From assembly GCF_002929825.1 (NCBI RefSeq), contig NZ_PJJN01000036.1, forward strand, positions 310,001 through 374,000: DNA of 64,000 nucleotides, written 5' to 3'. Positions 52,533-64,000 of the stretch are shown one piece after another; position 1 is the first letter of the stretch, and every line of letters starts with the position of its first letter. The DNA comes from Cryobacterium sp. Y29. GTDB lineage: Bacteria; Actinomycetota; Actinomycetes; Actinomycetales; Microbacteriaceae. The notes under the pieces were generated by a model. The model searched no databases. It was not told the DNA's origin and saw nothing but the letters and a program-made list of their open reading frames with translations. Both the position numbers and the translations under genes were made by a program.

Positions 52533-53807
52533 ATGAACGACAACAATTACGGCTCCGACCCGATGACTTTGCCGCAGGCGCCGGTGCTGCACACAGCGCT
52601 ACAGAAGCGCGTGGTGCGGGTGCTCATCGCCGGGCAGATCCTCGGAGGGATCGGCATGGGCGCGACCCTGTCCCTCGGCGCGCTGCTCGCTGCTCAGTTG
52701 TCGGGGTCGAGTGCCTGGTCGGGCATGGCCGCGACTATGAGCACCCTGGGCGCCGCGATCGTGGCCATACCCCTCGCTCGGCTGGCGCAGGCCCGCGGGC
52801 GCCGGGTGTCGCTCGCGACCGGCTCGCTCGCCGCCGGCACGGGTGCGATACTCGCCGTCACCTCGGTGTCGGTCGACAGCTTTGCCCTGCTGCTTCTCTC
52901 GCTCATGCTGCTCGGTGCCGGCTCAGCCACCAATCTTCAGGCGCGCTTCGCGGCCACTGACCTCGCCACACCGCGCTTTCGGGCCCGCGACCTGTCAATC
53001 GTGGTCTGGTCGACCACGATCGGCGCCGTACTCGGCCCGAACCTGTTCGGGCCGGGCGAAGTGCTCGGCGCAGCGCTCGGCCTGCCGGCGATGACGGGCG
53101 CTTTCGCGTTTTCCCTCGCTGCCACGGTCGCCGCCGCCTTCGTCTACGCGCTCGGGCTGCTCCCCGACCCTCTACTGACCGCGCTGGCCACGCGCACGGC
53201 GAGCGCGGGCATCCGCCGGGCTAATGGCGGTCTGTCAATTCTGCGCGGCAACGTGGCGGCCCGGTACGCCGTCATGGTCATCGCGCTCAGCCACGCCACC
53301 ATGGTGGCCTTGATGTCGATGGCTCCCGTGCACCTGCGTGACCACGGCGCCACCCTCACCGTCGTTGGGCTGACTATCAGCCTGCACGTGGCCGGAATGT
53401 ACGCCCTCTCCCCTGTCTTCGGCGCACTCGCCGACCGAGTGGGTCGTGTCCCGGTCATTCTCGGAGGACAGGCCCTGCTGCTCGTCGCCCTCACCGTCGC
53501 CTCGCTCAGCGACGGATCACAAAGCACGATGACGCTCAGCCTGATCTTTCTGGGACTGGGCTGGTCGGCATCCGTTGTGGCCGGTTCGGCGCTCGTGTCC
53601 GAAGCCGTGCAGATCGAGGAGCGCGCGTCGTTGCAGGGGTTCTCTGACCTCGCCATGAACGCGGCTGGCGCGCTCGGCGGCGCGCTCGCCGGTGCGATTT
53701 TGGCGCTGGCCGGCTACTCCGGGCTCGGCATCGCTGCCATGCCCCTGGTTGCGATTGTGGTGTTCTGGTCCATCGGTCGGCTGCGCATAGCGACTACGAG
53801 TCGGTGA
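52533..53807 (+). CDS. Major facilitator superfamily transporter
   Basis: A 424-aa protein from ATG 52533, with AGGGGA upstream, and 12 predicted membrane helices. The loop RLAQARGRRVSLATG between helices 2 and 3, and GALADRVGRVPVILGG in the second half, are the MFS motif-A repeats. Substrate unknown; drug/H+ antiporter-like. Its 3' end overlaps the convergent regulator gene by 14 bp. Confidence 0.88.
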   Translation: MNDNNYGSDPMTLPQAPVLHTALQKRVVRVLIAGQILGGIGMGATLSLGALLAAQLSGSSAWSGMAATMSTLGAAIVAIPLARLAQARGRRVSLATGSLAAGTGAILAVTSVSVDSFALLLLSLMLLGAGSATNLQARFAATDLATPRFRARDLSIVVWSTTIGAVLGPNLFGPGEVLGAALGLPAMTGAFAFSLAATVAAAFVYALGLLPDPLLTALATRTASAGIRRANGGLSILRGNVAARYAVMVIALSHATMVALMSMAPVHLRDHGATLTVVGLTISLHVAGMYALSPVFGALADRVGRVPVILGGQALLLVALTVASLSDGSQSTMTLSLIFLGLGWSASVVAGSALVSEAVQIEERASLQGFSDLAMNAAGALGGALAGAILALAGYSGLGIAAMPLVAIVVFWSIGRLRIATTSR

Positions 53808-55653
53808 CCGTGATGCCGAAGCTTTTCAATTTGCGGTAAAGCGACGACCGAGCGATTCCCAGGGACTCCGCCGCGCGCATCCGGTTGCCTTCGGCTTTGT
53901 GCAGCGCGCCGACAATGAGGTCGCGCTCCCCTGCTTCCAGCGCCGTCAGCAGCCGGGGCGCAACGCCGTGGCAGTAGGCGGGCAGGTCTTCCGCCTGGAT
54001 GGCACCAACCGGGCGCGTGAGCAGGGCGATATCGAGCGCTTCTTCGAGCTGCCGAATGTTGCCCGGCCAGGGGTAGCGGGAAATCACCCGCATAGCGCCG
54101 GCGCTGACGGTGGCGGGGCGCAATCCGGCTCGTCGGGCGAGGACCTGGGTGACGATGTCGGGCAGGTCGTCGATGCGATGCCGCAGGGGCGCCACGGTGA
54201 CGGAGGTTTCAAAATGGTGCAGCAGGCTCGTATACGCGCGATTGACGGCGAGATCGGCCTGGAGATCGGGTTGCGACACGGTCACGGCGATGCCGGCAGA
54301 GTCGGCGCGAGTCTCCCGGGCGACGAGAAATGCCTCTACTTCTTCGGTGACCGCCGTACTCAACCGATCGAAATTGCGAAAAATGTACAGCGTGGGCGGA
54401 ACCCCGACGCTGACCAGGTCGTTCTCCAACAGGGATTGCAGACCGTTCTCGTTGAGCGCTTCAGCGCCGAACACGACACTGCGACCCAGCGGAACGATCT
54501 GGCGATAGAGTTCGGCGAGGAGCGAAACCTTACCGCCGCCGGCCTCCCCCCACACGAGCAGGGCCGCCCCAGCAGTCAGCGCGGTGACCAGGCTGCTCGA
54601 GGCGCGTTTGCCGAGCAGGGATGACACATCGTGGACGATGGCCGCTGCCGCTGCAGAGCTCCGCTCGGGTTCACGCACCCGCCGCCCGCGCCCTTGTGAC
54701 AGGGTCAGACCTGACTCCCGGACCGGGAGGCGTGCCCGTTCGGACTTGATCTCGACGACCACGACGATACCAACGATGTCGGAGCCGACGACGACGCGCT
54801 TGCCCCGAATCTGCACGATCTTGCCCGATGACAGTTCGATCTCATCGACCGGCTGCCCCGGTGAGATCATCAGGTAGCGGGCGTGTTGGTGGATGGTCCA
54901 CTGTTCATCGGGAGAGAACTGGCTCTGCGCAACAGTGTTGCCCATCACGACGGTACCGCCGATCGCCATGACCGCGCCGCGGGTGCGAGAATCCACCCGC
55001 ACATACGCGTCAAACAGAGCCTGTTGCCGCTGGCTGCGGTCGATGAGCAGGTTGCGCTCTATTTCATGGGCGGCCGACTGCACCAGGGAATGCATGAGGG
55101 GGCTGGCATCCTCGCTCAGGCAGCTAATGTCGAGCACCCCCTCTACCCGGCCGGTGAGCGGGTCACGAATGGGGCTCCCTGCGCACGCGAAGGGCTGCAG
55201 GTGCTCCAAAAAATGTTCGGGTCCCACGATATACAGCGACTGGCCCGACTCGAGTACAGTGCCGATGCCGTTGGTTCCCACGTTTGTTTCGGCATAGTTG
55301 AAGCCCGGCGCGAGCGACACCTCGTCAAGCAGGGTTCCGATCGTCGTGTCGGTTTCGGAGCGACTGAGAATGCGCGCCTTGTAGTCGGTCAGAACGATCG
55401 ACAGCGGCATCTGGGCCATCTCGTCGCTCAGTCGGGCAATGACCGGTTCGGAGCACCGCATCAGCCGACCGGTGAGATCCAGATCGCTGTGAAAAACCGC
55501 CTGCGACGACACGGCATCGACGCCGGCTAAAAAGGATCGCTGCCAGGAAGCCGCCACTAATCCGGGAACCGATTGGGTTTCGGCGTGGCCGAAGCGAAGA
55601 AAATCGGCGCGAGCGGCGGCAATCCTGCTTCGCCGTTCGGCAACTCTGTGCAT
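53794..55653 (-). CDS. AcoR-like GAF / AAA / Fis-HTH transcriptional regulator without GAFTGA
   Basis: A 619-aa protein from ATG 55653, with AAGGGAG upstream. The N-terminus (HAETQSVPGLVAASWQRS) and a GAF-type sensor (SLAPGFNYAETNVGTNGIGTVLE, HFLEHLQPFACAGSPIRDP) are those of AcoR-type regulators. The AAA domain has a weakened Walker A (GEAGGGKVS) and no GAFTGA loop; a WPGNIRQLEEAL segment and C-terminal Fis-type HTH (NRMRAAESLGIARSSLYRKLKSFGI) follow. It is therefore unlikely to drive sigma-54 promoters, which fits actinobacteria. It is divergent from the carboxylase-like operon and probably controls it in response to a ligand. Confidence 0.86.
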   Translation of the reverse strand: MHRVAERRSRIAAARADFLRFGHAETQSVPGLVAASWQRSFLAGVDAVSSQAVFHSDLDLTGRLMRCSEPVIARLSDEMAQMPLSIVLTDYKARILSRSETDTTIGTLLDEVSLAPGFNYAETNVGTNGIGTVLESGQSLYIVGPEHFLEHLQPFACAGSPIRDPLTGRVEGVLDISCLSEDASPLMHSLVQSAAHEIERNLLIDRSQRQQALFDAYVRVDSRTRGAVMAIGGTVVMGNTVAQSQFSPDEQWTIHQHARYLMISPGQPVDEIELSSGKIVQIRGKRVVVGSDIVGIVVVVEIKSERARLPVRESGLTLSQGRGRRVREPERSSAAAAAIVHDVSSLLGKRASSSLVTALTAGAALLVWGEAGGGKVSLLAELYRQIVPLGRSVVFGAEALNENGLQSLLENDLVSVGVPPTLYIFRNFDRLSTAVTEEVEAFLVARETRADSAGIAVTVSQPDLQADLAVNRAYTSLLHHFETSVTVAPLRHRIDDLPDIVTQVLARRAGLRPATVSAGAMRVISRYPWPGNIRQLEEALDIALLTRPVGAIQAEDLPAYCHGVAPRLLTALEAGERDLIVGALHKAEGNRMRAAESLGIARSSLYRKLKSFGITVTDS

Positions 55654-55714
55654 ATCTACTCCCTTGTGGACTCTGCAAGCATGCCCCCTGCGACCGGGGA
55701 ACGCCAGCCGCACG

Positions 55715-55733
55715 GTGTCCCAATGTGGGACAC
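55715..55733. promoter_or_regulatory. Palindromic operator candidate between regulator and carboxylase-like operon
   Basis: GTGTCCCA-ATG-TGGGACAC is a perfect 8-3-8 inverted repeat in the 167-bp divergent interval, 88 bp from the first operon ATG and 62 bp from the regulator ATG. It is the most likely binding site for the Fis-type HTH of the divergent regulator. Confidence 0.65.
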
Positions 55734-55820
55734 GCCACCGCGGGAACGCGGGGTCATTCTTACGGGAGCGGTTTCCTCGGGAACCTCGGTCACTCACAAC
55801 TGCAACGCAAAGGAGCGCTC

Positions 55821-57677
55821 ATGGAACGTTTGATCAACATTGACAATGGTGGAACCCTCACCGACATTGTCGTCGCCAGCGGCACGGATTTCACGTTCAC
55901 CAAGACCCTCACCACCCCGGTCGACCTGTCCCAGTGTCTCTTCGACGCCATGACGAAGGCGTCAGCGCAGATCTATGGTGACGCCAACCTTGCCGGTCTG
56001 CTGCACTCGACCCAGCACATCCGCTATTCATCGACGCAGGGCACCAACGCGCTCGTGCAACGCAAGGGCCCGCTGATCGGCCTGATCACCGACGATCCCG
56101 CTCTGCCAGACTCGCTCGGCAACTCGGAAGAGACGGCCGGGCTCTTCAACGATCTGATCGGCGCCCGCGTCGGCATCATCGCCGCCGCCGGGACCCCGGA
56201 GGACCTAGCCCAGCAGCTCGTCGCCGAAATCAACCGGCTGACCACCGCCGGGGCCGAACGTCTCGTCGTCGCCGGCCAGAGCGCCGAACGCGAGCACCTA
56301 TTCAAACGAACAATGCTAAAGAACTTTCCGCGGCACCTGCTCGGATCGGTCCCGATCCTGTTCTCCCGCGAGTTCGCCACAGACACCTCCCGGCAGCGCC
56401 AGGTCTGGTCGGGCATTCTGAACTCTTTCCTGCATCCAACGGTCGAGCGTTTTCTCTACAGCGCCGAACACCGGCTGCGCGCCTACAAGGTCAAGAACCC
56501 GCTGTTGATCTACCGCAACGACGGCGCCTCCTCCCGCGTCGCCAAGTCGGTCGCACTCAAGACCTACTCCTCCGGACCGCGCGGCGGGCTCGAGGGTACG
56601 CGTGCCCTCGCCGAAGCCTACGGTCTCGACAACGTGCTCATGATCGATGTCGGCGGCACGACAACGGATGTCGGAGCCGTCGCCAACTCCACGATCGCCG
56701 TCGACCGGCGCGGATCGATCCAGGGCGTCGACATCTCCTACGAGATGAGCAACGTGCGTTCCACCGGAGTCGGCGGCAGCTCGATCATCGCCGTCCACGA
56801 CGGCGGGATCACCGTCGGGCCGGAAAGCGTGGGCGCAGCGCCCGGACCAGCCTGCTTCGGTTTCGGCGGCACCTCGGCCACGATCACCGACGTCAACCTG
56901 CTGCTCGGTGTGCTCGACCCTGCCACCTACCTGAACGGCGAGATGGCACTGGATGCTGAGCGGTCGCGCGCGGTCATCATCAAGACCGTCGCCGACCCGC
57001 TCGGGATCAGCCTCGAGGAGGCTCTGATTCTCATGGAAGCGAGCTATTCCAGCCACCTGGCGCGCTCCTTCGCCGACCTTGTGAGTGCAACCGGTGACAC
57101 CACGGTCGCCGCGTTCGGCGGCGGCGGACCGATGAACGCCTGCAGCGCCGCGCGCATAGCCCGCGTGCGCCAGGTACTCGTACCGCGACTCGCAGCAGTG
57201 TTCTCCGCCTACGGCATCAGCTTCTCCGACATCGCGCAGTCCTACGAAGCCAACGTCACCAGCTTCTCACCGGCCGAGATCGGTGCAGTACGCACCGCAC
57301 TGCAAGCGGATGCCGGCAAGGACATGTTTCAGGAAGGACACGACCTGAGCGAGTGCCAACTCGACTGGTCGACCCGGGTCGAAGATGGCGAAGAGATCCT
57401 CGCCCTCAAAGCCACCTTCCGACTGCCGCACCCGGAAATTGCCAGCGGAGCGCCCGCTACAGCGAGCGTCGGCGTCGCCGCCGGAACCCGACAGGTGCGC
57501 TCTACTCCCACCCAGATTGACACCGTGGCCGTCTACCACCTCGACGAGCAGAAGCCCGGTGCGACGGCAGCCGGACCGGCCATCGTCGAGGGCCCGTTCT
57601 TCACCGCGCGGGTGCCGCTCGGCTGGACTCTCACGGTTTCGACCGCCGGCGACCTGCAACTTGCCGACACGCTCTGA
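55821..57677 (+). CDS. HyuA/hydantoinase-A-like subunit, ApcA-like
   Basis: A 618-aa protein from ATG 55821, with AAAGGAGC 5 bp upstream; upstream frame extension is rejected. It has an ASKHA-type ATP-binding fold: INIDNGGTLTDIVV near the N-terminus (slightly altered DxGGT) and MIDVGGTTTDVGAV near residue 275, then SVGAAPGPACFGFGGTSATITD and FGGGGPMNAC. The family includes the ATP-hydrolysing subunits of acetone and acetophenone carboxylases. Size and first position match ApcA (about 70 kDa). In acetophenone carboxylase this class activates the ketone as a phosphoenol. Operon of five genes on one strand. Confidence 0.82.
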   Translation: MERLINIDNGGTLTDIVVASGTDFTFTKTLTTPVDLSQCLFDAMTKASAQIYGDANLAGLLHSTQHIRYSSTQGTNALVQRKGPLIGLITDDPALPDSLGNSEETAGLFNDLIGARVGIIAAAGTPEDLAQQLVAEINRLTTAGAERLVVAGQSAEREHLFKRTMLKNFPRHLLGSVPILFSREFATDTSRQRQVWSGILNSFLHPTVERFLYSAEHRLRAYKVKNPLLIYRNDGASSRVAKSVALKTYSSGPRGGLEGTRALAEAYGLDNVLMIDVGGTTTDVGAVANSTIAVDRRGSIQGVDISYEMSNVRSTGVGGSSIIAVHDGGITVGPESVGAAPGPACFGFGGTSATITDVNLLLGVLDPATYLNGEMALDAERSRAVIIKTVADPLGISLEEALILMEASYSSHLARSFADLVSATGDTTVAAFGGGGPMNACSAARIARVRQVLVPRLAAVFSAYGISFSDIAQSYEANVTSFSPAEIGAVRTALQADAGKDMFQEGHDLSECQLDWSTRVEDGEEILALKATFRLPHPEIASGAPATASVGVAAGTRQVRSTPTQIDTVAVYHLDEQKPGATAAGPAIVEGPFFTARVPLGWTLTVSTAGDLQLADTL

Positions 57678-57723
57678 CCCGATACCTCAACCCACTTTGT
57701 TTCCCAAGGAAGGTACAAACAAA

Positions 57724-58179
57724 ATGCGCGTTCCCATGACCGAATACCTGCTCATCGACCTCGACACGGAACGATGGATCTGCCGCGTCTGCGCCCACGA
57801 CTTCGGCGATGCTCGTGGCAATTATAAAGAGGGCACCCTGGTCTACGACCGAGACCCCCAAGAGATTCATCCTCCCGTGATCGCCCCGGAGAAATACGAA
57901 TTCACATTCTCTCCCGATCCCGCCTTCTGCCGCATCCTGGAGTTTTACTGCCCCACCTGCGGAACCCAGATCGAAGCCGAATATCTGCCGCCGGGCCATC
58001 CACCGACCGTTGACATGCTGTGGGACATCGACTCGCTGCGCGAAAAGTGGAATGCCCACGGGGGCAACCCCGAAGAGGTCGTCAACTATGGTCCTGGCGA
58101 AAACGCCGAGGCCGACCTCAGCGCCCGGTTCGACTCCGTGGCACCCCACGCTCACTCGCGCCAAAACGAAGGACACTGA
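57724..58179 (+). CDS. Acetone/acetophenone carboxylase gamma-like zinc protein, ApcB-like
   Basis: A 151-aa protein from ATG 57724, with AAGGAAGG upstream. WICRVCAHDFGDARGNYKEG, then RDPQEIHPPVIAP and FYCPTCGTQIEAEY, align with the acetone carboxylase gamma subunit (CxCGHDF, DTPQKMEEIYPRLMAP, EYFCPECGT). The two CxxC pairs should hold one Zn. A gamma subunit distinguishes these carboxylases from hydantoinases and oxoprolinases, so this gene is the key evidence for a carboxylase. It lies 46 bp after the ApcA-like gene and 2 bp before the next start. Confidence 0.84.
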   Translation: MRVPMTEYLLIDLDTERWICRVCAHDFGDARGNYKEGTLVYDRDPQEIHPPVIAPEKYEFTFSPDPAFCRILEFYCPTCGTQIEAEYLPPGHPPTVDMLWDIDSLREKWNAHGGNPEEVVNYGPGENAEADLSARFDSVAPHAHSRQNEGH

Positions 58180-58181
58180 CC

Positions 58182-60308
58182 GTGAAACGAATCTCGGTAG
58201 ACATCGGCGGCACGTTCAGCGATTGTTTCTTCGTCTGGGATGACGTCTACATCGAATCCAAAGCGCTCACCACGCACCACAACCTAGCGCTCGGTTTCAA
58301 CGAAGCCCTGGACCGGGCCTGCGAGCGGGCTGGTATCAGCCGCGAGACGGCCCTCAAAGAGGTCGACTCGGTGCGCTACGCCACGACGCTGGGCACCAAC
58401 GCCCTAATCGAGGGCAAGGGCCCACGGGTCGCGGCAATCGTCACCCACGGCTTCGAAGACACCATCCCACTCTCCCGCGGCCGCGGCTACGGCGAAGGAC
58501 TCGACGGGGCCAAGCAGGGCGACATGCCGGACGCCCAACGTCCCGAACCGCTCGTGCCACGCCAGCTCATCCGCTCGGTGAAGGAACGCATTGATTCGGT
58601 CGGCGAGGTGCTCGTGCCGATCATGTACGACGACGTGCGCACCCAGGTGCGCGAACTCGTCGACAACGGCGCCGAGGCCATCGTCATTGCCCTGACCAAC
58701 GCCACCGAGAACTCGGTGCACGAGGATCGCATTCTGGAAATCATCCTCGATGAGTACCCCGCGCACGAGCTCGGGTCTATTCCGGTGCTACTCAGCAGCC
58801 AGGTATCGGGGCGCAAGGGTGAATATGTGCGGGCCATGGCCACCATCGTCGACGCTTTTTTGCACCAGACCATGTTCCATGCGCTCAACCAGCTTTCCAA
58901 CAACCTGCGCGACTCCGGCTATGAGAAGCCGATGCTGGTCATCCATAACTCGGGCGGTATGGCGCAGCCCAATTCCACGGATGCCCTGCAGACGATTCAC
59001 TCCGGACCGATCGCCGGTGTCGGGGCGGCCCAGCACCTCGCGGAGTCGACCGGCCTCGGCGACGTAGTGTCAATGGATATGGGTGGCACCTCGTTCGACA
59101 TCGGCCTGGTGCCAGAGGGCGGCGTACGGCACTACGACTTCCAGCCCACCATTGGTCGCTGGATGGTCTCCGCGCCGATGATCCACCTCAACACGCTCGG
59201 CGCCGGCGGCGGATCTATCGCCGCCTACAACCGCATTCACCATGCCCTCCAGATCGGGCCGGAATCAGCCGGAAGCGACCCGGGCCCGGCCTGCTACGAC
59301 CGCGGTGGCCTGCGCCCAACGGTCACCGACGCCGACCTGGTACTCGGCTATCTCGACCCGGACAACTACGCCAACGGGCACATCACTCTCAACAAGAAGC
59401 GCTCGATCTATGTCATCGATGAGACGCTCAGCGACGAGCTCGACCTGGACGCGGTCGAGGTCGCCAAGGTGATCAAGAAGACTGTCGACGAACAGATGGC
59501 GATCGGCATCGAAAAGGAGCTGCGCTCGCGCGGCGGGCTGATCGAGGACTACACGATGCTCGCCTACGGCGGTAACGGCCCGCTGCATGCCTGCGGCATC
59601 GCGGCGAGCGCCGGCATCAGCCGTATCTTGTTTCCGCCGTTCGCCTCGGTGTTCTCCGCGCTCGGGGCCGGCAACATGCGTCCGCTGCACATTCACGAAC
59701 GCAGCGCCTACGTCGTGCTCTACGAACCGATCAAGCGCAGCCTCTACACCCAATACGAGGCGCTCAACGGGTACATCGAGGAGCTCGAAGCGAAGGGCGC
59801 CGAAGACCTCGTACGCCAGGGCTACGACCGCGCCGACGTGCGCTACCGCCTCGAAATGGACATGCGCTACGGCAACCAGCTCGTCACCACGGCCGTCGCC
59901 TTCACCATCAACCGGGTCAATGGAGTCGCCGACGTGCTGCACCTGATCAAGACGTTCTCCGATCTCTTTGGCGAACGCTACGGCGAGGGCACCCAGGCGC
60001 CGGAGGCGGGCGTGCGTGCGCAGACTATTCGCGTAGCGTCCTATATCGAGGGCGAAGTCATTGCATTCGAGTCGATTCACACCGGCGGGGAGAAGATCAA
60101 GCCGGAACCGGTCTCGCATCGGTCGGTGCATTTCACGAGTATCGCCGGCGCGGTCGACACCCCCGTTTTTGACGCCGAGGCGCTCAAACACGAATACGTG
60201 ATCCACGGACCGGCGATCGTCACGACCGAGAACACCACCTACCTGGTCGAGCCCGGCTGGCGGCTGGAACCGACCAGACAGGGTGCGGTATGGCTACTGA
60301 GCGACTGA
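58182..60308 (+). CDS. HyuA-like subunit, ApcC-like
   Basis: A 708-aa protein with GTG start at 58182 and GAAGGA upstream. The first nucleotide motif is VDIGGTFSDCFFVW (6-19) and the second SMDMGGTSFDIGLV (about 297-310), then NTLGAGGGSIA, GPESAGSDPGPACYDRGG and LAYGGNGPLHACGIA. It is the canonical HyuA/AcxA type, about 78 kDa like ApcC, and clearly different from the first HyuA-like gene, so the operon has two ATP-binding subunits, as in acetophenone carboxylase and unlike acetone carboxylase (one). Its start lies 2 bp after the gamma-like stop. Confidence 0.84.
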   Translation: MKRISVDIGGTFSDCFFVWDDVYIESKALTTHHNLALGFNEALDRACERAGISRETALKEVDSVRYATTLGTNALIEGKGPRVAAIVTHGFEDTIPLSRGRGYGEGLDGAKQGDMPDAQRPEPLVPRQLIRSVKERIDSVGEVLVPIMYDDVRTQVRELVDNGAEAIVIALTNATENSVHEDRILEIILDEYPAHELGSIPVLLSSQVSGRKGEYVRAMATIVDAFLHQTMFHALNQLSNNLRDSGYEKPMLVIHNSGGMAQPNSTDALQTIHSGPIAGVGAAQHLAESTGLGDVVSMDMGGTSFDIGLVPEGGVRHYDFQPTIGRWMVSAPMIHLNTLGAGGGSIAAYNRIHHALQIGPESAGSDPGPACYDRGGLRPTVTDADLVLGYLDPDNYANGHITLNKKRSIYVIDETLSDELDLDAVEVAKVIKKTVDEQMAIGIEKELRSRGGLIEDYTMLAYGGNGPLHACGIAASAGISRILFPPFASVFSALGAGNMRPLHIHERSAYVVLYEPIKRSLYTQYEALNGYIEELEAKGAEDLVRQGYDRADVRYRLEMDMRYGNQLVTTAVAFTINRVNGVADVLHLIKTFSDLFGERYGEGTQAPEAGVRAQTIRVASYIEGEVIAFESIHTGGEKIKPEPVSHRSVHFTSIAGAVDTPVFDAEALKHEYVIHGPAIVTTENTTYLVEPGWRLEPTRQGAVWLLSD

Positions 60309-60358
60309 CCGTTTTTCTCACCTTCGCAACACTTCACACAAGCAAAGGAGCTTGAACC

Positions 60359-62692
60359 ATGACACTGACAACCGACAAGTTCGTGCCCACCAGCGGAAAC
60401 GCCGACGCGTCCCAGCTACTCACCGACCAGGAACAGCAGTGGGTCGACAAATTCATGGACGAGACCACTCTTTTTCTCGGACCAGATCCGGCCATCATGC
60501 GTACTCACGAGATCATGCCGCGCACCGCCTATGAGGAGGAGTGCATCGCGCAGGGTATCGACCCGCTCGAGGTCGACCGGATTCGCAAACGCCTGGCCGG
60601 TGCACTTGATGAGGCCTTCGAGATGTGCGAAAGCATGGGCGCGGCTCCCGGAGCGAAGTGGGCCGACCTCTCCTGCGCGGTCTACACCGCAGAGGGCGAT
60701 GTCACGTATCTCTCCAACCGCGGCGTGATCGCCTTCTCTGCGGTGCTGCACCACCCCATCCGCTACATCATGAAGAACTGGAAGGATGAGCCCACCGTCG
60801 GCATCAACCCGGGTGACGGTTTCTTCCACAACGACTCCCGCTACGGCATGGTGCACAACACCGACCAGTCGATGCTTGTGCCGGTCATGCGCGACGGAAT
60901 CATCATCGCCTGGGTGGGTGCGACCATCCACGAAGGCGAGAACGGAGCGTGCGAACCTGGTGGCATGCCGTCGGGTTCGGAGTCACCATTCGATGACGGT
61001 CTGCGGGCCTCGCCGATCAAGATCGTGGAGAAGGGCCATCTACGTCGCGACCTGCTCACGTTCTTGCAGCACTCCACGCGCGACCCGAAGCTCATGCTCG
61101 CCGACATCAAGGTAAAGATGGGCGCTACCCGGCGCATCATGGACACCGTCGACCGGCTCATCGACGAGGTGGGACAGGAGACCTTCGTCGCGTCGCTTCG
61201 CGTCACCGTCGAGGACGTCGAGACTGAGGTGCGCCGGCGCATCGCCGAGCTGCCCGACGGCACCGTCACCTTCAATCAGTTCGTGGACTCCACGCTCAAG
61301 GAGAACATTCTGATCAAGTTCGCCTGCAAGATCACCGTCACGGGCGAACGGATGATTATCGACCTCACCGGCACCGGCCCCGAGATTCTCAATCGGGCCC
61401 TCAACTCACCGCTCGCGTCAACGAAATCCTTCATGTCCCAGGCAGTTCTCTCGTACTGGTGGCCCGACCTGCCTCGCAGCACCGGAGCGTTGTCGCCGAT
61501 TGAAATTATCACGGAGGAACACACCTGGGCGGATGCCGGGTACGACGCGCCCGTCGGCCAGTCGCTGCAGGCATCCTTCCGCGGCTTCTCCGCCCTACAG
61601 TCGGCCTTCGCCAAGATGCAGTTCTCATCGCCGCAGAAATACTCGAACGTCGTCGCGCCCTGGTTCAACCAGATCAACGATTTTCTCTGGGGCGGCACCA
61701 CGCAGAACGGTGAACAAGTGGGCAACCTGTGCGCTGATCTCAACGGCATGGGCGGCGGCGCGAAGGCGTTCCGCGACGGTGAAAATGCCGTAGCGCCGTT
61801 ATTCTGCGCCATGGCCGACCTCGGCGAACAGGAAGTCATGGAAGAGGAGGTTCCGTTTCTGCAGTTGGTCAGCAAGCGGCTGGTGCGCGACAACCAGGGC
61901 TTCGGGAAGTTTCGCGGCGGTATGGGCTACGAGATGATGGTGGCCTCACGCGGCACACCGAGCTGGGGTTTCATGACCGTCACCTCTGGATCGAAGTTCT
62001 CCTCGGTTCCGGGCATGTTCGGAGGGTACGGATGCCCGACGTACCCCCTGGCCATGGTCAAAAACATCAACATCTACGACATCATCAAGAAAGACCCCTC
62101 GCAGTTCAACCTGTCGATGGAACGTGTCATGAACGAGCAGCCCTTTGCGGGCGGCGATTACCAGTCCGGTCACATGGGACTGCAGTTCGACGTGGCGAAG
62201 GAGGGCGAGCTGTACATGATCGCCCAAGGCGCCGGCGGCGGCTACGGCGACGTGCTGGAGCGCGACCCCGAACTCGTCGTGACTGACCTGGAACTGGACC
62301 GGATCTCGGCCCACGTCGCCACGAACATCTACGGCGTGGTCTGGGAAGCAGACACCTTCGTGGTGCACGAAGAAAAAACGAACCTGCTGCGGGCACAGAT
62401 GCGCCAGGATCGGATCAGCCGCGGAAAGCCGTACAAGGAGTTCGTTGCGGAGTTCGTTCAAGAAGAGCCGCCCAAGGACCTGCTCTATTACGGTTCGTGG
62501 GGACAGGACAACAACGAGGAACTGCTGGCGACGCACTGGGGCAAAATCGAGCCCGAGCGAGTCAAGGGCAAGATCAAAGATCTGCCACTCATCATGGTTC
62601 CTGACCGCCGAGTACTGAAAATCAGCAAGCTCGAGGCGCGGGTACGTGAACTCGAGCAGAAATACGGCGAAGAGACCGTGCACAAATCCTGA
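60359..62692 (+). CDS. HyuB-like carboxylase subunit, ApcD-like
   Basis: A 777-aa HyuB/AcxB-family protein from ATG 60359 with AAAGGAG 8 bp upstream. The metal-site region reads NPGDGFFHNDSRYGMVHNTDQ and GATIHEG. His166, Asp169 and His191 have the same 3- and 25-residue spacing as the Mn ligands I recall for acetone carboxylase alpha (His150/Asp153/His175). KFRGGMGYEM and YGGYGCPTYPLAM are family blocks. The C-terminus has a short predicted coiled coil (LEARVRELEQKYGEE). It should carry the carboxylation centre of the complex. Confidence 0.85.
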   Translation: MTLTTDKFVPTSGNADASQLLTDQEQQWVDKFMDETTLFLGPDPAIMRTHEIMPRTAYEEECIAQGIDPLEVDRIRKRLAGALDEAFEMCESMGAAPGAKWADLSCAVYTAEGDVTYLSNRGVIAFSAVLHHPIRYIMKNWKDEPTVGINPGDGFFHNDSRYGMVHNTDQSMLVPVMRDGIIIAWVGATIHEGENGACEPGGMPSGSESPFDDGLRASPIKIVEKGHLRRDLLTFLQHSTRDPKLMLADIKVKMGATRRIMDTVDRLIDEVGQETFVASLRVTVEDVETEVRRRIAELPDGTVTFNQFVDSTLKENILIKFACKITVTGERMIIDLTGTGPEILNRALNSPLASTKSFMSQAVLSYWWPDLPRSTGALSPIEIITEEHTWADAGYDAPVGQSLQASFRGFSALQSAFAKMQFSSPQKYSNVVAPWFNQINDFLWGGTTQNGEQVGNLCADLNGMGGGAKAFRDGENAVAPLFCAMADLGEQEVMEEEVPFLQLVSKRLVRDNQGFGKFRGGMGYEMMVASRGTPSWGFMTVTSGSKFSSVPGMFGGYGCPTYPLAMVKNINIYDIIKKDPSQFNLSMERVMNEQPFAGGDYQSGHMGLQFDVAKEGELYMIAQGAGGGYGDVLERDPELVVTDLELDRISAHVATNIYGVVWEADTFVVHEEKTNLLRAQMRQDRISRGKPYKEFVAEFVQEEPPKDLLYYGSWGQDNNEELLATHWGKIEPERVKGKIKDLPLIMVPDRRVLKISKLEARVRELEQKYGEETVHKS

Positions 62693-62703
62693 CCTGTCCT
62701 TTC

Positions 62704-62753
62704 TGACCCGTGGCTGCGGGGTCGTCTCCTGGCGGCCTCGCAGCCACGGGTCA
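62704..62753 (+). terminator. Intrinsic terminator between fourth and fifth operon genes
   Basis: TGACCCGTGGCTGCG (62704-62718) pairs perfectly with CGCAGCCACGGGTCA (62739-62753) and is followed by CCCTTTT. It starts 12 bp after the ApcD-like stop and ends 28 bp before the start of the next gene. Confidence 0.8.
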
Positions 62754-62781
62754 CCCTTTTAATCGATCACAGGGAGACACC

Positions 62782-63585
62782 ATGACACTTTCGCTACATG
62801 AGCTTCTGGCCGAGCCACCCTCGGGCCGCAGTCGGGCTGTGGTGTTGGACAGTCACGATTATGCCCAATCCGTTTTTTTGCAGGGTAAGCCCGTGCCGTG
62901 GCAGGAACCCATGGCGTACGCGAATTTCTTCGGCCAGGTTCAGGGCGTTCTCAAGTCCGATCTGGCGCTGGTCAGTCTCGACCGGTTCTATGCACACCGG
63001 GTCGCATCTGATCCCGCTCTGCAAGCCGCCATGGGCGCCAAGTCCCGCACCGGTTACGCCCTCCGCACCCTGCTGGGTGATGCCGAAACGACAGCATCCG
63101 TGATCGAACTGGTCACCGTGCTGAGCCAGACTCAGCGGGTGCCGGTCGTGCTGCAGATTCCGTCGCCTATGCAGTGGCTGGCGCGAACGCATCCGTTTTC
63201 GGGGTCGGCCGACGTGTCAGGGCTCGACGCCGACACTGCCGAAAACGCCTCCATGTACGTCGCCGACTGGCTGCGCGGATTCGCCGCGCTGCCGTTGATC
63301 GCGGTGTTGCTCGACGACCGCGAACCCTCTCTCGGCAGCGAACCGATACCGCTGTCGACGTACTCTCCGATCACCAACGTGACCGACCACTACCAGTGGG
63401 CGCTCGGCCAGCGGCACGACGATCGGGTCGAGCTGCACAAAAGTGCGCTCCACGGAGCGGTGATCGGCACGGATTTCTGGTCGAACGACACCGACACCCT
63501 GCCGGTCGGTGATTTTCTGGTGGGCGAGGTGCCGCGCCAGGCAGTTCCGGAGCGGGTACTGAGCCGCATTTCGACACTGGTCTAA
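62782..63585 (+). CDS. Fifth operon protein, ApcE-like in size and position, family unrecognised
   Basis: A 267-aa soluble protein from ATG 62782, with AGGGAGA upstream. It contains alternating hydrophobic strands and helices, e.g. LVSLDRFYAHRVAS, VIELVTVLSQTQRVPVVLQIPSPMQW and WLRGFAALPLIAVLLDDRE, suggesting an alpha/beta or TIM-barrel-like fold. I do not recognise a named family. In acetophenone carboxylase a separately added fifth subunit ApcE of about 34 kDa is encoded last (from memory), and this 29-kDa protein fits in place and size. A terminator separates it from the fourth gene. Confidence 0.62.
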   Translation: MTLSLHELLAEPPSGRSRAVVLDSHDYAQSVFLQGKPVPWQEPMAYANFFGQVQGVLKSDLALVSLDRFYAHRVASDPALQAAMGAKSRTGYALRTLLGDAETTASVIELVTVLSQTQRVPVVLQIPSPMQWLARTHPFSGSADVSGLDADTAENASMYVADWLRGFAALPLIAVLLDDREPSLGSEPIPLSTYSPITNVTDHYQWALGQRHDDRVELHKSALHGAVIGTDFWSNDTDTLPVGDFLVGEVPRQAVPERVLSRISTLV

Positions 63586-63853: not shown

Positions 63854-64000
63854 CTACGCTTTCGCTGCGGCTTTCGCGGCCCGCTTGGTCGCGCGCACCC
63901 GGGTCACTGACTCGGGATCGACGATGTCTGCCACCGACCGGTACGCGCCGTCTTCGCCGTAGGGAGCGGATGCGTCACGCCAGCCGTCCGCGTCGATCCC
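63854..64000 (-). CDS. C-terminal 48 residues of an unidentified protein, cut by window edge
   Basis: The frame enters from the right edge with GWRDASAPYGEDGAYRSV and ADIVDPESVTRVRATKRA and stops at 63854 after an Ala/Lys-rich tail (AAKAAAKA). Codon usage is typical of the window. A basic Ala/Lys tail can be nucleic-acid binding, but too little is visible to name it. Confidence 0.5.
   Translation of the reverse strand, partial: GIDADGWRDASAPYGEDGAYRSVADIVDPESVTRVRATKRAAKAAAKA

Follow-up and report, generated by a model that had tools for sequence, protein, structure and literature searches.

The systems closest to the one considered here share subunits of the HyuA and HyuB families. Acetophenone carboxylase (Apc) of Aromatoleum aromaticum is encoded by apcABCDE, and structures are available for its core (5l9w) and for its ApcE subunit (9fou). 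Acetone carboxylase (Acx), known from Xanthobacter, Aromatoleum and Helicobacter pylori (5m45, 5svb), consists of HyuA, HyuB and gamma subunits, encoded by three genes in a different order. N-methylhydantoinase/5-oxoprolinase (HyuAB; 7hk5, 6yra) is a two-subunit enzyme. Here, we describe a five-gene operon (A–E) in a 64,000-nucleotide stretch of the 3.66-Mb genome of the actinobacterium Cryobacterium sp. Y29 (contig NZ_PJJN01000036.1, positions 310,001 to 374,000, forward strand; hereafter, the window).

Comparative analysis makes it likely that A–E specify a biotin-independent carboxylase of five subunits, powered by a nucleoside triphosphate (NTP), whose substrates are short aliphatic methyl ketones, acetone and butanone in the first place. 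The complex would be Apc-like in build and probably acetone-carboxylase-like in role, i.e., a widespread variant with the Apc architecture. If this reading is true, Actinobacteria and gastric Helicobacter have a common route for short ketones that has so far escaped notice, by which small ketones such as acetone would become usable as food via the addition of CO2. There would also be a natural pair of enzymes for one reaction, one with a single kinase subunit (Acx) and one with two (the five-gene set), and this pair would make the meeting of two activated substrates in ketone carboxylases directly testable.

Architecture and family placement of the operon

All five open reading frames (ORFs) that a preliminary description, made from the sequence alone, had listed on one strand are present at the sizes it gave (Table 1). 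Their order is that of apcABCD(E), and their sizes agree with those of Apc as well. The apcABCDE-type architecture proposed there, as opposed to acxABC, is borne out: there are two distinct HyuA-like kinase subunits (A on the ApcA side, C on the other), whereas Acx is a three-gene system with a single kinase subunit and without E. A plain AcxABC is thus ruled out by the gene orders. HyuAB has the HyuA and HyuB families in common with the operon but lacks the gamma subunit, the second HyuA and E, and it lies in a different clade; a HyuAB hydantoinase is ruled out on these grounds. Acetovanillone carboxylases of the Hpe/Xcc type were also set aside, being biotin-dependent enzymes of another family according to the available text of PMC9618137 and PMC8461187; that of PMC13101465 has no mention of these genes.

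Pfam searches matched A and C to Hydantoinase_A, B to Acetone_carb_G (133 bits) and D to Hydantoinase_B (288 bits). In a sequence search of PDB chains, the best solved-structure matches of A–D were the cognate chains of Apc 5l9w (E-values of 8.3e-77 for A, chain 5l9w_b; 2.4e-32 for B; 6.6e-145 for C; 9.3e-83 for D), which together make up the alpha, beta, gamma and delta set. The best NCBIfam match of A is ApcA, at 313 bits against a cut-off of 1250; B scores 135 bits with ApcB (cut-off 250), C 532 bits with ApcC (cut-off 1500) and D 304 bits with ApcD (cut-off 1500). All four are far under the equivalog cut-offs, which rules out a true Apc equivalog. Together with the separate clade of D and the acetoacetate-type neighbourhoods described below, this speaks against acetophenone carboxylase as a name for the enzyme: of the Apc label, the architecture stands but the substrate probably differs.

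Table 1. Features of the operon region, in window coordinates.
Feature	Position	Strand	Description
A	55821-57677	+	HyuA/ASKHA subunit, ApcA (alpha-prime)-like, 618 aa; proposed bicarbonate kinase
B	57724-58179	+	small zinc-binding subunit, ApcB/Acx-gamma-like, 151 aa; alternative ATG start at 57736
C	58182-60308	+	HyuA/ASKHA subunit, ApcC (alpha)-like, 708 aa, GTG start; proposed ketone (enol) kinase
D	60359-62692	+	HyuB-like subunit with metal site, 777 aa; proposed carbon–carbon bond forming site
E	62782-63585	+	epsilon-like accessory subunit, 267 aa, predicted TIM barrel like UroD/ApcE
Regulator	53794-55653	-	AcoR/DhaR-like, 619 aa, divergent from A–E
Inverted repeat TGTCCC-N5-GGGACA	55716-55732		probable operator of the AcoR-like regulator

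Related loci were surveyed as a set of 86, comprising the locus in the window, five plasmid records and the best 80 of 352 confirmed loci, and the recurrence of the five-gene set in relatives is far beyond chance. The tree of D combined 30 further loci and three PDB rows with 37 of the 86, namely the window, each of the five plasmid records and one or two loci from every genus; PDB chains were entered as aligned stretches, and the tree holds no PDB row for Acx alpha. In a quick version of this tree (70 rows), the 44 five-type rows fell on one side of a branch with a support of 100, apart from 17 Acx-like rows (100), seven Apc-type rows (85) and two hydantoinase rows. A more careful tree of 42 of the 70 rows, from which five long or truncated rows were dropped and in which the five-type rows were reduced from 44 to 21, gave supports of 100/99 for the five-type clade, 98/94 for Apc and 100/100 for Acx, and D lay outside the ApcD clade. 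The labels of the 30 further loci (five, apc-like or acx-like) are not wholly independent of the tree, because they were set by score, in agreement with gene order.

In a tree of HyuA proteins (89 rows), a branch with a support of 100 separated the A-type and ApcA rows from every C-type, Acx and hydantoinase row, and the five-type A (33 rows) and five-type C (33 rows) each occupied one side of a branch (99). The Apc-type A rows and C rows were each not a single clade (two changes each). The preliminary description had named two outcomes that would count against its proposal: both HyuA-like proteins grouping with the hydantoinases, which is not what the tree shows, and loss of the zinc cysteines or the His-Asp-His site, which are retained (see below). 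In these phylogenies the clades of A, of C and of D are each separate from Apc, Acx and the hydantoinases. The deeper order is less firm: five-type D and Apc fell on one side of a branch with a support of only 74, a grouping of five-type with Acx was not rejected (approximately unbiased test, p-AU 0.209), and five-type C grouped with Acx and the hydantoinases (support 90).

Conserved residues and the fifth subunit

The cysteines expected of a gamma-like zinc protein are kept in B (Cys20, 23, 76 and 79 in the alignment), as they are in Apc. In D, H166, D169, H191 and D103 are identical in 44 of 44 aligned clade rows, and the same pattern (Asp, His, Asp, His, in the order D103, H166, D169, H191) is found in 7/7 Apc-type rows. 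The column of the fourth metal ligand separates the groups: Asp in all 44 five-type and all seven Apc-type rows, Glu (E89 in Acx) in 17/17 Acx-like rows. The spacing of H166-D169-H191, likened to that of acetone carboxylase in the preliminary description, is indeed that of the manganese ligands His150, Asp153 and His175 of acetone carboxylase (available text of PMC5543143) and also that of the mercury-marked site of Apc, His123, Asp126 and His148 (available text of PMC5214803). Just past His191, Glu192 and Asn195 occur in 44/44 five-type rows; elsewhere they are rare or missing (2/17 and 1/17 Acx-like, 0/7 and 0/7 Apc-type, 0/2 and 1/2 hydantoinase rows, respectively).

Motifs of the ASKHA type are present in both A and C, those of A being DNGGT, DVGGT and GAAPGP. 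The ApcC fingerprint R/KERiDsxG occurs in C as KERIDSVG (residue 134) and is not seen in the A-type strings shown; it cannot separate Apc from Acx, because similar strings occur in Acx beta. Residue 281 of ApcC, in the pocket tentatively assigned to the ketone, is Phe or Tyr in 6/6 rows. Its equivalent is Ile, Val or Met in 33/33 rows of five-type C, and in Acx beta it is Leu or Ile (9/9 rows); Asn282 of ApcC is replaced by His in 33/33 five-type C rows. An aliphatic residue in this pocket would be compatible with a smaller ketone, although it is no proof of one. D is longer than ApcD, with medians of 770 and 675 residues for trimmed rows. At the C-terminus of D (window positions 62504-62692), about 60 residues extend past the end of the ApcD match; they are charged and, by eye, heptad-like, and look like an added helix.

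The fifth gene had been proposed as the counterpart of apcE, and it is the predicted fold that bears this out, not the sequence. E has no sequence match in Pfam, NCBIfam or PDB, and sequence searches did not link it to ApcE, giving only weak matches that were not believed (the presence of 9fou in one of the libraries being unconfirmed). The predicted model of E has a predicted local distance difference test score (pLDDT) of 95.4, and in a Foldseek search with this model the top three matches were the solved ApcE 9fou, the sole match with an E-value below 0.001. The modelled fold of E is thus ApcE-like. The gene is present in 20 of 21 relatives that have D, the single miss having D at a contig end, and in 0/79 other relatives. 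Of 34 Helicobacter genomes, 16 have D and exactly these 16 have E, which is unlinked in 11 of them; that E is kept even where it is unlinked suggests an indispensable epsilon subunit. In four Helicobacter genomes (G889, G895, G897 and G914) the D gene is in pieces and E is retained.

Gene neighbourhoods, proposed reaction and alternatives

Neighbourhoods were surveyed by clustering ORFs across the 86 loci. Both subunits of a 3-oxoacid coenzyme A (CoA)-transferase (SCOT) were found in 35 loci, representing 15 named genera and three further groups. The pair occurs in four arrangements, upstream or downstream of A–E and on either strand; in 15 loci it is downstream on the same strand. In the named Helicobacter loci, SCOT is upstream on the same strand in 9/9, with a gap to A of 20–73 bp in eight and a thiolase in eight. 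Scores of representative neighbours are above the NCBIfam scoA, scoB and thiolase cut-offs, and the acetoacetate-CoA ligase of Cupriavidus N-1 scores 798 bits (cut-off 521). Judged by gene content, many of these neighbourhoods suggest products of the acetoacetate type. SCOT was seen in 0/17 Acx-like and 0/6 Apc-like comparison loci, which are few and, at about 15–18 kb, shorter than some of the 86. The genome that contains the window has one CoA-transferase pair, on a different contig.

In the available text of PMC2244623, acxABC of H. pylori lies near scoAB and a thiolase gene and is proposed to carboxylate acetone. For H. bizzozeronii, "acetophenone carboxylase subunits 1 to 4" are described beside scoAB and fadB, and the authors considered that those genes could belong to an alternative pathway (available text of PMC3234257). 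Of the 34 Helicobacter genomes, 16 have the five-type set, 15 have an Acx-like gene and none has both; "Acx-like" here means two stretches 27–30% identical to D, the name resting on the published acxABC of H. pylori. All 30 five-type genomes searched have PF08882, and all 31 of the matches lie inside five-gene loci; therefore, no Acx gamma was seen in these 30 genomes. The simplest reading is one role filled by two enzyme types, the five-type set in Helicobacter probably occupying the pathway slot (scoAB and thiolase) of acxABC. Of the substrates left open by the preliminary description, a short aliphatic methyl ketone is the most likely.

By homology, we infer the following reaction and division of labour. 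C would phosphorylate the enol form of the ketone to give an enol phosphate, and A would phosphorylate bicarbonate to give carboxyphosphate, with ATP or another NTP as the driving nucleotide. The two products would come together in D, at its divalent-metal site (H166, D169, H191 and D103). B would hold a structural zinc and wrap D; E, like ApcE in the mechanism proposed for Apc, would dock on the core and enable turnover. The reaction would yield a 3-oxoacid, e.g., acetoacetate, which could be activated by SCOT or by an acetoacetyl-CoA ligase and then cleaved by thiolase.

A bolder version of this proposal seems to us to have slightly less than an even chance. It holds that the five-gene set makes up a distinct, third class of ketone carboxylase. 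Its members would be widespread acetone carboxylases that combine two kinase subunits with a TIM-barrel subunit of the ApcE type, and they would charge ketone and bicarbonate at separate sites (in AcxABC, this happens sequentially on one nucleotide). Many gastric Helicobacter would have received the set from Actinobacteria or Psychrobacter and would use it in place of AcxABC. The set would also be the missing gene set of a nucleotide-dependent acetone carboxylase of Rhodococcus. Clark and Ensign reportedly described such an enzyme in 1999 from Rhodococcus rhodochrous B276; it is said to be inducible, to have subunits of 85, 74 and 16 kDa and to prefer GTP and inosine triphosphate. The subunits so reported are near D, C and B in size, and this host is also actinobacterial.

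Several observations weigh against a carboxylase of short ketones. SCOT-family enzymes also act on 3-oxoadipate. At 41 of the 86 loci, the stretches read contain no SCOT, no thiolase, no acetoacetyl-CoA ligase and no related AMP ligase; among these 41 are 12/14 Cryobacterium loci and the window itself. SCOT is present in only 1/7 further five-type loci. Neighbourhood is, moreover, an imperfect guide, because the Acx-like loci themselves have an acetoacetyl-CoA ligase in only 2/17 cases and SCOT in none. In G614, a distant member of the clade, no E was found. On the plasmid of the archaeon Halorientalis (L028), A–E lie beside two AMP-binding proteins or ligases, a thiolase and an OB-fold protein; an aromatic-ketone pathway would have such ligases and a thiolase in place of SCOT. 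In the available text of PMC5214803, the sole characterised Apc takes an aromatic ketone and the assignment of the residue-281 pocket to the ketone is tentative; the authors also doubted a catalytic role for the metal site, and the joining step at D is therefore the least certain of the proposed mechanism.

The alternative that survives best, although we consider it unlikely, is a diverged Apc acting on aromatic or larger (acetophenone-like or cyclic) ketones. The gene order, the two kinases and the epsilon subunit agree with Apc, the Halorientalis neighbours fit, and some hosts come from oil-polluted soil; however, the operon differs from Apc in its own clades and its low equivalog scores. 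The SCOT, thiolase and acetoacetyl-CoA ligase neighbours in many loci, the replacement of Acx in gastric Helicobacter and the aliphatic residue in place of an aromatic one in the Apc pocket also argue against it. No benzoylacetate-CoA ligase was seen beside the operon, in keeping with the preliminary description, the right flank having been read by translation without a family search; to the right of position 64000, the ORFs of at least 200 residues, read in the same way, look like genes for a short-chain dehydrogenase, secreted proteins and housekeeping proteins.

An enolisable aliphatic substrate of another kind (a longer ketone, a keto-acid or a diketone), its product passing through a CoA-transferase, is improbable. 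SCOT-family transferases take several 3-oxoacids, which leaves room for it, and a zinc alcohol dehydrogenase cluster in 19/86 loci (nine named genera and one further group) would fit a range of secondary alcohols; against this stand the neighbourhood held in common with H. pylori acxABC and the Cupriavidus ligase above its equivalog cut-off. Least probable is a HyuAB-family enzyme that has gained subunits and acts as an ATP-dependent lactamase or hydantoinase, as the family membership and the hydantoinase/oxoprolinase labels in plasmid records might suggest, since two HyuA-like subunits, a zinc gamma and an epsilon are foreign to hydantoinases (available text of PMC5214803) and the trees separate the five-type proteins from 7hk5 and 6yra.

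No assay of a member of the five-gene clade was found in the open-licence literature. In records and papers its genes are named hydantoinase, acetophenone carboxylase (once "anaerobic") or hypothetical protein. The apc1-4 genes of Rhodococcus ruber, named a putative anaerobic acetophenone cluster in the available text of PMC6498646 and known here by that description, may be of the five-gene type.

Distribution, regulation and neighbouring genes

The operon is accessory in Cryobacterium: D was found at 91% identity or more in 21 of 57 genomes searched. The closest D among the best 80 of 352 loci is that of Cryobacterium sp. Y57 (99% identical). In one genome of the genus without the operon, a 35-residue piece 86% identical to D (G028:C19:169382-169486) is, from its sequence, likely to be a relic. 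Hosts among the same best 80 loci are Actinobacteria of many families, Psychrobacter, Marinobacter and gastric Helicobacter, to which the plasmid records add Rhodococcus, Neorhizobium, Cupriavidus and Halorientalis. Helicobacter and Psychrobacter lie together within the actinobacterial part of the D tree (100/100); transfer is therefore likely. PF08882 of any type was found in 22/396 sampled genomes of Actinomycetota and in 7/369 genomes of the class of Psychrobacter. In four genomes of that class, G341, G248, G219 and G442, the acetone-carboxylase gamma family is matched 12, 7, 6 and 4 times, a striking expansion of what by sequence are ketone-carboxylase paralogues. Where the gene order was looked at (3, 2, 3 and 2 loci, respectively), the loci of G341 were all Acx-like, those of G248 and G219 mixed and those of G442 five-type.

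The operon has its own AcoR-like regulator, as had been described, whose Pfam matches are AAA_lid_14 and HTH_8 (a Fis-type helix-turn-helix) only; the sigma-54 activator domain gave no match in Pfam. Its best NCBIfam match is DhaR (131 bits, cut-off 551). The regulator ORF cluster is present in 48 of the 86 loci, and 17 of the remaining 38 have a MalT/LuxR-type regulator. Between the regulator and A lies the perfect repeat TGTCCCAATGTGGGACA, the only site in the window with at most one mismatch. The weight of this repeat rests on its conservation, because 19 of 100 shuffles also contain a site with at most one mismatch. In 47 regulator–A intergenic rows (46 loci, L024 twice), TGTCCC-N5-GGGACA was exact in 21, 14 of them from Cryobacterium, and had one mismatch in 18; in random 550-bp windows, drawn without a fixed seed, it was found with at most one mismatch in 4/235. 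By its conservation the repeat is probably the operator through which the AcoR-like regulator would work.

Other genes near members of the clade were also recorded. A dehydrogenase gene stands between D and E in Cupriavidus (L027:22247-23023, of the short-chain type by reading) and in two Streptomyces (L083 and L064, of the zinc alcohol dehydrogenase cluster), a position that suggests a secondary alcohol as precursor. In Neorhizobium petrolearium (L026:22229-29341), the genes that come after the cluster are those for SCOT A/B, a sigma-54 factor of RNA polymerase, a CobW-type GTPase, possibly a metal chaperone, and a sigma-54-dependent regulator. The plasmid copy of Rhodococcus qingshengii has a GTP-type phosphoenolpyruvate carboxykinase (L024:3850-5736) and several thiolases nearby.

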